Source of the DNA: Verrucomicrobiales bacterium
Lineage (GTDB): Bacteria; Verrucomicrobiota; Verrucomicrobiia; Limisphaerales; CAIMTB01
Length of the DNA: 64,000 nucleotides
Direction: 5' to 3'
NCBI GenBank assembly: GCA_016795425.1
Contig: JAEUHG010000005.1
Location: forward strand, 1 to 64,000
Position numbers and translations under genes: made by a program. The notes under the pieces are model-generated. The model saw nothing but the letters and a program-made list of their open reading frames with translations. It was not told the origin of the DNA and did not search any database. This document shows, piece after piece, positions 22,069 to 24,283 of this stretch (position 1 is the first letter of the stretch; the number at the start of each line of letters is the position of its first letter).

Positions 22069-22113
22069 GCGCGGGTCCCAAGAATTCGAAGGGTCAACTA
22101 TTCATTGCATCGC

Positions 22114-22560
22114 ATGAGCAACAAACACGTTCCATTGATCAGTTCCGGCGTCGCCGGTCCGCTTGGCCTCCTCCATCTTCCGCGCCTGTGGCAGAAGGGG
22201 TTGTTGGGTGGCCTGGGCAAGTTGGCGGACGGCTACACCGACATCGGGCCGGGCTACGACCACATGGTGCTCGGCGCCATTGGCGTGGATCCCGCGAAGG
22301 CCAAAGCCTTTTTGCGCGAGAAGAAGCCGACCTACGCGCAGTTCGAGGCGTGGATCAAGGCGTACCCCGGAGTGAAGTTGGACAAGGCGACGATCTACAA
22401 GAACAACGTCGCCATCCAGGGCTACATCCACGACGACGCCACCCGCAAGGGCATCCTGGCGGCCGCCGGATTGTCCGATGACGGATCTTCGAATCCCGGA
22501 GCCGTCGATCTGAACAATCTCGACGACTGGACCGAGTTCCATAAGGCCGTGGTGAGCTAA
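22114..22560 (+). CDS. DUF5069 domain-containing protein
   Basis: A small soluble protein of 148 residues, matching from memory the DUF5069 family found mostly in Verrucomicrobiota. Seen features: an N-terminal GVAGPLGLLHLPRLWQK motif, GPGYDHMVLGAIGVD in the middle and an aspartate-rich end. There is no signal peptide or membrane segment. I chose the ATG at 22114 over an in-frame TTG 9 bp upstream. The gene stands alone between a possible promoter and a strong terminator, so it is probably monocistronic. Function unknown. Confidence 0.85.
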   Translation: MSNKHVPLISSGVAGPLGLLHLPRLWQKGLLGGLGKLADGYTDIGPGYDHMVLGAIGVDPAKAKAFLREKKPTYAQFEAWIKAYPGVKLDKATIYKNNVAIQGYIHDDATRKGILAAAGLSDDGSSNPGAVDLNNLDDWTEFHKAVVS

Positions 22561-22839: not shown

Positions 22840-23925
22840 GTGATCCGCAACGTGATCTTCGACTGGTCCGGAACTTTGGTGGATGACTTGCCGGCAGTCC
22901 TGGATGCCACCAATCACGTACTGGCGCAGGCCGGGATGCCTCCGATGTCGCGCGAGCAGTTTCGCGCCGAGTTCAAGCTCCCGTTCACAGGCTTCTATGA
23001 GCAGCATTTGCCGAACATCCCGATGGAGCAGTTGGAGGCGTGGTTCCACGCTCGATTCCGGGAAGTCCAAGGCTCGGTGGTGGAGTTGCCGCATGCCCGG
23101 CGGTTCCTGGAGTTCTGCCGGGCGCGCGGAGTTCGCACCCTGCTGTTGAGCACCATGCATCCCGATCACTTCGCCGTTCAGAATCGAGCGAACGGGTTCG
23201 GCAACTACCTGGATCATCCCTACCTGGGTGTCTGGGATAAGCGAAAGAAGATCCACGAAATCCTGCGCGATCATGATTTGAAACCGGATGAAACGGTCTT
23301 CATCGGCGACATGGAGCATGACATCGAAACGGCGAAGCACGGTGGCATTCGCAGCGTCGGCGTTCTCACCGGCTACAATGCCAGCCATCAACTCCACCGT
23401 GCCGGCCCGGACCGCATCGTCGAGCACTTGGGTGAGCTCCAGGACATTCTCGAAGCCGCCGGTATGGAGTTGGTGAGTGCCGTGCCGTCGGGTTCGGAGT
23501 CCCGTCGACCGGTGGTGACCGTCGGTGCGGCGATTCTGGACGACGCCGAGCGCGTTTTGATGGTGCGGACTCACAAATGGTCGAATCGGTGGGGGATTCC
23601 CGGTGGAAAGGTGAAGTTCGGGGAATCCAGCGAGAGCGCGCTGGTTCGGGAGCTCAAGGAGGAGACCAACCTCGACGTTCGGGACATCGAGTTTGTCCTG
23701 GTGCAGGACTGCATTCACTCCAAGGAATTCTATCGTGACGATCATTTCGTGCTTCTGAACTACCGCTGCCGGGTTCCGGCAGGCGTGAAAGCCGAAGTGC
23801 GCCTGAACGAGGAAGCTCAGGATTACCGCTGGGTGACCCTGGAGACCGCTTTGGAGATGGACCTCAATCAACCGACCCGCGTCCTGCTGGAGGCCCTGCG
23901 GGCAAACAAAACCGCCGATGTCTGA
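22840..23925 (+). CDS. HAD-family phosphatase fused to a Nudix hydrolase
   Basis: 361 residues with two domains. HAD part (1-215): motif I FDWSGTLVDD with nucleophile Asp8 but Ser10 in place of the usual second Asp; a helical cap; motif II LLLSTMHPD; lysine motif DKRKK; motif IV FIGDMEHDIETA. Nudix part (from about 220): complete Nudix box GGKVKFGESSESALVRELKE plus ETNL, near 254-277. The GTG start is set by the HAD N-terminus; extending upstream would only translate the dispersed repeat. Its last 8 bp overlap folB. Context suggests it converts dihydroneopterin triphosphate to dihydroneopterin (Nudix removes pyrophosphate, HAD removes the last phosphate), feeding FolB. This is inference; a house-cleaning nucleotide role is the alternative. 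Confidence 0.88.
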   Translation: MIRNVIFDWSGTLVDDLPAVLDATNHVLAQAGMPPMSREQFRAEFKLPFTGFYEQHLPNIPMEQLEAWFHARFREVQGSVVELPHARRFLEFCRARGVRTLLLSTMHPDHFAVQNRANGFGNYLDHPYLGVWDKRKKIHEILRDHDLKPDETVFIGDMEHDIETAKHGGIRSVGVLTGYNASHQLHRAGPDRIVEHLGELQDILEAAGMELVSAVPSGSESRRPVVTVGAAILDDAERVLMVRTHKWSNRWGIPGGKVKFGESSESALVRELKEETNLDVRDIEFVLVQDCIHSKEFYRDDHFVLLNYRCRVPAGVKAEVRLNEEAQDYRWVTLETALEMDLNQPTRVLLEALRANKTADV

Positions 23926-24283
23926 CCGCATTGAAATCGCCGATCTCGAAGTATCGTGGCGGGTGGGCGTTCCGGACCACGAGCGTTCGCGACCGCAGCG
24001 GCTCCTGTTGACGATCTCTATGGAAACCGACGTCACAGTCGCGGCGAAAACCGACGATCTTGCGCGGACCATCGATTATTACGCCGTGACACGGCGGATC
24101 CAGGGTCTGGGCGAGGGCCGGGAGTGGCGGTTGATCGAGAGTCTGGCCGTCGAGATCGCCGAACTGGTGCTGAGGGATTACGGTCCGAAACGCGTGACGG
24201 TGGAGGTAAAAAAGTTCATTCTGCCCTCAACCCAATGGGTCTCGGTGCGCGTCGAACGCGCGCTTCCGTTGGCGAAGGGATAA
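23918..24283 (+). CDS. folB: Dihydroneopterin aldolase FolB
   Basis: 121 residues, the usual length. Converts 7,8-dihydroneopterin to 6-hydroxymethyl-7,8-dihydropterin plus glycolaldehyde in folate synthesis. The conserved elements are present: VGVPDHERSRPQRLLL (substrate-binding glutamate), TIDYYAV, LIESLAVEIAELVL and the catalytic-lysine region VEVKKF. The ATG overlaps the end of the HAD-Nudix gene by 8 bp. Four bp separate its stop from the next gene, so it belongs to the same operon. Confidence 0.93.
   Translation: MSDRIEIADLEVSWRVGVPDHERSRPQRLLLTISMETDVTVAAKTDDLARTIDYYAVTRRIQGLGEGREWRLIESLAVEIAELVLRDYGPKRVTVEVKKFILPSTQWVSVRVERALPLAKG

Follow-up and report, generated by a model that had tools for sequence, protein, structure and literature searches.

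A HAD-Nudix protein encoded by a gene overlapping folB as a likely bifunctional supplier of the FolB substrate in Verrucomicrobiia

Introduction

In the bacterial route to folate, dihydroneopterin triphosphate is converted to the monophosphate by a Nudix enzyme and then loses its remaining phosphate before FolB, the dihydroneopterin aldolase, acts (PMC1971073; PMC5526541). The Nudix step is represented by Lactococcus lactis FolQ and Escherichia coli NudB, and a third family of dihydroneopterin triphosphate pyrophosphohydrolases is reported to have been described in a 2024 paper. The final dephosphorylation has been ascribed to a ‘non-specific phosphatase’ (PMC1971073). Two further systems bear on the locus described here, namely E. 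coli YihX, a HAD enzyme proven to be a glucose-1-phosphate phosphatase (PMC4251788), and the eukaryotic FolB-FolK-FolP fusions, which join consecutive folate steps in one polypeptide (PMC4224340).

Results

A HAD-Nudix fusion gene overlaps folB

The window analysed here is a stretch of 64,000 nucleotides from a Verrucomicrobiales bacterium (contig JAEUHG010000005.1, positions 1 to 64,000). An earlier note, made from the sequence alone, had claimed that one protein encoded in it joins a HAD domain to a Nudix domain and that its gene overlaps folB by 8 bp; the open reading frame, the Pfam matches and the coordinates bear this out. The gene structure and domains, which are shown directly, are as follows.

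22840..23925, + strand: HAD-Nudix fusion gene, 361 aa, GTG start, TGA stop at 23923-23925 (open frame; Pfam HAD_2 and NUDIX; ~90 distinct homologues)
22840..23454, + strand: HAD domain, residues 1-205, C1-cap phosphatase fold (Pfam, alignment, AlphaFold2 model, Foldseek)
23455..23511, + strand: inter-domain linker, residues 206-224, with low model confidence at 215-221
23512..23910, + strand: Nudix domain, residues about 225-357 (Pfam, alignment, model, Foldseek)
23918..24283, + strand: folB, dihydroneopterin aldolase, 121 aa, ATG start at 23918 (Pfam and TIGR00525)

Both Pfam matches in the fusion protein, HAD_2 at residues 5-175 (2.3e-18) and NUDIX (PF00293) at residues 225-351 (3.8e-22), lie far over their gathering cut-offs. 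FolB, the sole copy found in the source genome, is recognised by PF02152 with 88 bits (cut-off 31.8), and its 77.4 bits against the TIGR00525 dihydroneopterin aldolase equivalog clear the cut-off of 72.15. No single HAD or Nudix equivalog model comes near its cut-off on the fusion protein: the top NCBIfam match of the HAD domain, phosphoglycolate phosphatase, stays far below at 67 bits against 180, and the Nudix domain reaches 25 bits against the NudB equivalog NF006961, whose cut-off of 103 it does not meet. The Nudix substrate cannot be deduced from sequence. An Rfam scan of the window returned no riboswitch and no other Rfam family.

The fusion and folB share 8 bp (23918-23925). We count the overlap as more than chance because 26 of 78 relatives with a downstream folB overlap it too, and the stop of HAD-Nudix and the closest folB start codon are separated by a median of +3 nt; the overlap is exactly 8 nt in twelve loci (the gap list still includes two duplicate pairs, L005/L044 and L013/L141). 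Translational coupling of the two genes is probable, as an inference from this arrangement.

Upstream of the fusion lies a small gene (22105-22560) without a Pfam match at 0.001. It has relatives near the free-standing HAD in four loci of one family (f5; L122, L123, L125 and L127), and an ORF resembling it lies near folK in L155.

Catalytic residues are conserved in both domains

An AlphaFold2 model built with 55 sequences (mean pLDDT 92.9) shows two confident domains connected by a linker that is loose at residues 215-221. Foldseek places the first domain with C1-cap HAD phosphatases and the second with NudI and NUDT15. A HAD-type inorganic pyrophosphatase is also among the matches of the HAD domain.

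The claim that the Nudix domain is complete held: the window protein satisfies the Nudix box (Gx5Ex7REUxEExGU) and fold criterion, and 92 fusions show no variation at G255, G256, E262, R270, E271, E274 and E275. The final glycine of the box is asparagine in the window protein, glycine being the commonest residue there in the family. Of the 17 sample genomes with this Nudix subfamily, 16 have it fused to HAD and only G190 has a free-standing copy. That copy (L133, at about 26085-26507 of contig C4) is 41% identical to the window Nudix and comes from another class of the phylum.

The HAD domain fulfils the superfamily criteria of fold, motif I nucleophile aspartate, motif II serine or threonine, motif III lysine and acidic motif IV. 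The nucleophile D8 is kept in 109 of 109 aligned members; position 104 of motif II, a serine here, is S or T in all 110; and K134 of motif III and D157 and D161 of motif IV are likewise kept in 110/110, with H160 also invariant among the HADs. The conservation of these catalytic positions, which extends down to about 41% identity, is a direct observation. The aromatic residues F41, F45, F52 and Y53 are invariant too, and would be expected around the pterin site if the proposed reading holds. Motif I reads D8-W-S10-G-T instead of DxD, with serine at position 10, the usual site of the second aspartate, in every member that has the column (109/109), so that the second motif I aspartate expected of HAD phosphatases as general acid/base is missing and the domain fails that criterion. 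The description of the domain as HAD phosphatase-type therefore holds with a qualification on which the earlier note had not remarked.

This DxS motif is the chief doubt over phosphatase activity. The missing aspartate is not disqualifying by itself, because YihX, a proven phosphatase, reads FDLGNV at motif I and also lacks it; by analogy, the change alone would not exclude activity. Glucose 1-phosphate, the YihX substrate, however, has a better leaving group. The motif also gives rise to a rival explanation, in which the HAD domain is weak or dead and supports FolB as a scaffold or regulates it, while the Nudix domain alone works and a non-specific phosphatase takes the last phosphate. The serine in all members favours this reading. 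Against it, D8, S/T104, K134, D157 and D161 are kept to about 41% identity, although a scaffold would not need them, and YihX works without the second aspartate. We consider a dead HAD unlikely.

The HAD-Nudix fusion is linked to folB across Verrucomicrobiia

The survey covered 388 Verrucomicrobiota genomes and GTDB species contigs and gave over 100 loci, with 28 further stretches taken around extra hits; every stop-to-stop frame of the loci was searched with profiles made from the HAD, Nudix and FolB of the window. In the raw tally, HAD-Nudix frames had folB less than 400 nt downstream in 71 loci and at 400-2500 nt in 7, no folB despite at least 700 nt of downstream sequence in 12, and a contig end in 3. 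All three domains lay in one frame twice, and HAD-FolB did so 25 times. HAD occurred alone with folB next to it in 9 loci, alone without folB in 6 and truncated at a contig end in 2. Duplicates were dropped by hand (L005/L044, L012/L139, L013/L141 and L014/L140), and one locus tallied as HAD alone (L109) was reassigned as a fusion interrupted by a sequence gap.

After these corrections, 78 of the 88 distinct HAD-Nudix loci whose downstream sequence is long enough have folB adjacent or fused (Verrucomicrobiia, ~90 distinct loci), and folB was not seen in the available sequence of the other 10. Eight more loci carry a HAD gene alone immediately 5' of folB, and with all HADs pooled folB is linked or fused in 111/127. 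FolB is present in every phylum-sample genome with a strong HAD match (54/54). A survey of co-occurrence with folB had been called for in the earlier note, which took its proposal to be refuted if most such fusions lay apart from folB and their genomes had a NudB of their own; for linkage, the survey shows the opposite.

The linkage recurs in nine of the ten HAD-carrying family codes (f1, f2, f4, f9, f10, f13, f16, f18 and f19). The tenth is f5, whose six loci (L120, L122-L125 and L127) carry a free-standing HAD that is not near folB. In L122 the gene preceding it is SLOG/lysine-decarboxylase-like and a homocysteine S-methyltransferase/methylenetetrahydrofolate reductase gene is close by; by eye, L120 has a similar arrangement.

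As a control, 20 folB loci were searched in Verrucomicrobiota genomes that lack the DWSGT HAD, and none (0/20) had a HAD or Nudix-profile hit within about 3 kb. One Nudix-like ORF, two genes from folB in L179, was missed by the profile and found by eye. In several of the control loci folB is grouped with folP, folK and pab-type genes. Two genomes of genus g4 (G113 and G197) lack both FolB and the HAD; their joint loss is not independent evidence, because the two domains are fused in that genus and one deletion would remove both.

A HAD-Nudix gene with folB also occurs in a contig labelled Betaproteobacteria (L104, CAJCIA010000246.1). Phylogenetically, its HAD lies among the HADs of Verrucomicrobiia, and the contig is probably mislabelled or misbinned.

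FolB keeps the HAD as its partner, while the Nudix is optional

The 25 single-ORF HAD-FolB loci, which contain no Nudix domain, come from Akkermansiaceae-type genomes (including L022, L119, L126, L129-L132 and L134-L138). In L022 and related loci (family f4, genus g4), from genomes which we take to be Akkermansia-like on the basis of gene content and relatives, an ORF of about 330 aa carries HAD_2 at 5-175 and FolB at 217-324, and its HAD is 49% identical to that of the window. HAD_2, NUDIX and FolB all lie in one ORF in L087 and L101. The HAD is thus found fused to Nudix, to FolB or to both, or separate just upstream of folB, with the Nudix domain optional, a pattern that the earlier note had not noticed. 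Linkage and fusions alike are shown by the loci themselves.

On a tree of 126 HAD domains, at least 9 changes of architecture are required, 2 of them for the HAD-FolB group and 2 for the triple form; the link between HAD and FolB has therefore been made or kept repeatedly, and the FolB fusion probably has more than one origin. The tree comes from a short search and has many weak branches, and the direction of change cannot be inferred from it.

In HAD-FolB genomes without a fused Nudix, no linked Nudix was identified, nor was the enzyme for the pyrophosphate step. Searches near fol genes of genomes whose HAD lacks a Nudix turned up a copy downstream of folK in G188 that reads as RppH-type by eye and, in Akkermansia-type genomes, Nudix genes some 4 kb from FolE2 whose identity was not established. 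A Nudix beside FolE2 in G001, a genome without the DWSGT HAD, does not resemble FolQ.

It is the HAD and not the Nudix that stays with FolB. The HAD-FolB fusions are best explained by a phosphatase acting immediately before FolB. Two rivals were weighed against this reading. In the first, the protein has a house-cleaning role or acts on nucleotides, or else its HAD breaks down the pyrophosphate that the Nudix sets free, and the position beside folB is unrelated to dihydroneopterin. The resemblance of the Nudix to NudI/NUDT15 and MutT-type nucleotide enzymes and the inorganic pyrophosphatase among the HAD matches speak for it. The repeated single-ORF HAD-FolB fusions and the linkage in 9/10 family codes speak against it, and pyrophosphate clearance leaves the Nudix-free HAD-FolB fusions unexplained, which makes this rival improbable.

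The best mechanistic rival is that FolB cleaves dihydroneopterin monophosphate and the HAD dephosphorylates the released glycolaldehyde phosphate, with the Nudix still making the monophosphate. The nearest named HAD family is phosphoglycolate phosphatase (albeit far below its cut-off), a HAD-FolB fusion would suit a step just after FolB equally well, and an archaeal enzyme is annotated as a dihydroneopterin monophosphate aldolase. However, FolB passes the ordinary dihydroneopterin aldolase equivalog, and the described bacterial pathway removes the phosphate before the aldolase (PMC1971073). We regard this rival, too, as unlikely, and retain a phosphatase acting before FolB as the preferred reading.

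The source genome encodes the surrounding pathway

Pathway genes were examined in 22 genomes, the window's own included. FolE2, FolK and a FolP-type pterin-binding domain are each present in 22/22, although the only pterin-binding domain of G197 lies in a long frame and is probably MetH. The source genome itself has FolE2, FolB, FolK and FolP, and dihydroneopterin triphosphate is therefore a plausible intermediate in it. FolE was found in none of the 22. Its absence had suggested that no dihydroneopterin triphosphate is made, which was rejected since FolE2 occurs in 22/22; a GTP cyclohydrolase II-type bypass, which the missing FolE had also brought into consideration, was dropped. PTPS, present in all 22 genomes, is another possible consumer of the triphosphate.

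No Nudix in the 22 genomes, including the 8 Nudix domains of the source genome, exceeds the NudB equivalog cut-off. This is a weak test of whether a separate NudB accompanies the fusion: the model is too narrow to show absence, because only one of 14 control genomes passes it, though L. lactis with its proven FolQ is among them.

Discussion

The HAD-Nudix fusion is likely a bifunctional supplier of the FolB substrate, a reading that rests on comparative genomics, with substrates, catalysis and coupling inferred. In the proposed scheme, FolE2 would make 7,8-dihydroneopterin triphosphate in the source genome, the Nudix domain would remove pyrophosphate to give dihydroneopterin monophosphate, and the HAD domain would take off the last phosphate through an aspartyl-phosphate on D8. 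The resulting dihydroneopterin would pass to FolB, whose overlapping gene is probably translationally coupled. The suggestion of the earlier note that the fusion supplies both steps before FolB is thus supported by comparative genomics and considerably strengthened by the survey, its catalysis remaining an inference. A bolder reading, towards which we lean only slightly and in which the activity is again inferred, is that the DWSGT HAD represents the first dedicated dihydroneopterin monophosphate phosphatase, working by a mechanism without the second aspartate and joined to Nudix, FolB or both, which would allow a single chain to carry out three successive steps.

The domain families and reactions are of known kinds. 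In the open-access literature that we searched, which excluded subscription papers and preprints, we found no gene for a dedicated monophosphate phosphatase and no description of a HAD for this step or of such domain orders. The HAD-FolB and HAD-Nudix-FolB fusions provide a specific and easily tested candidate for this dephosphorylation, and the group in which they occur includes Akkermansia-type genomes. If the proposal is true, it would fill a gap in pathway annotation across an entire bacterial class and make a HAD lacking the second aspartate available for mechanistic study.

Compared with FolQ and NudB, the window Nudix shares the superfamily, the complete Nudix box and the proposed reaction and, like L. 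lactis FolQ, is linked to a folate gene, but it lies behind a HAD in one chain, scores far below the NudB cut-off and has a fold nearer to NudI/NUDT15. The HAD has the fold, cap type, nucleophile, lysine and acidic motif IV of the C1-cap phosphatases (phosphoglycolate phosphatase-like; 2hsz, 2ah5, 3mc1 and AlnB 4ex6), from which it differs by its DWSGT motif without a second aspartate, its fusion to Nudix and/or FolB and an identity of about 20%. YihX (HAD4, an alpha-glucose-1-phosphate phosphatase) likewise lacks the second aspartate of motif I, but acts on another substrate, has glycine (DLGNV) instead of serine and is not linked to folate genes. The eukaryotic fusions also place consecutive folate steps on one polypeptide; whereas they join FolB to the steps that follow it, the Verrucomicrobiia fusions join it to those that precede it.
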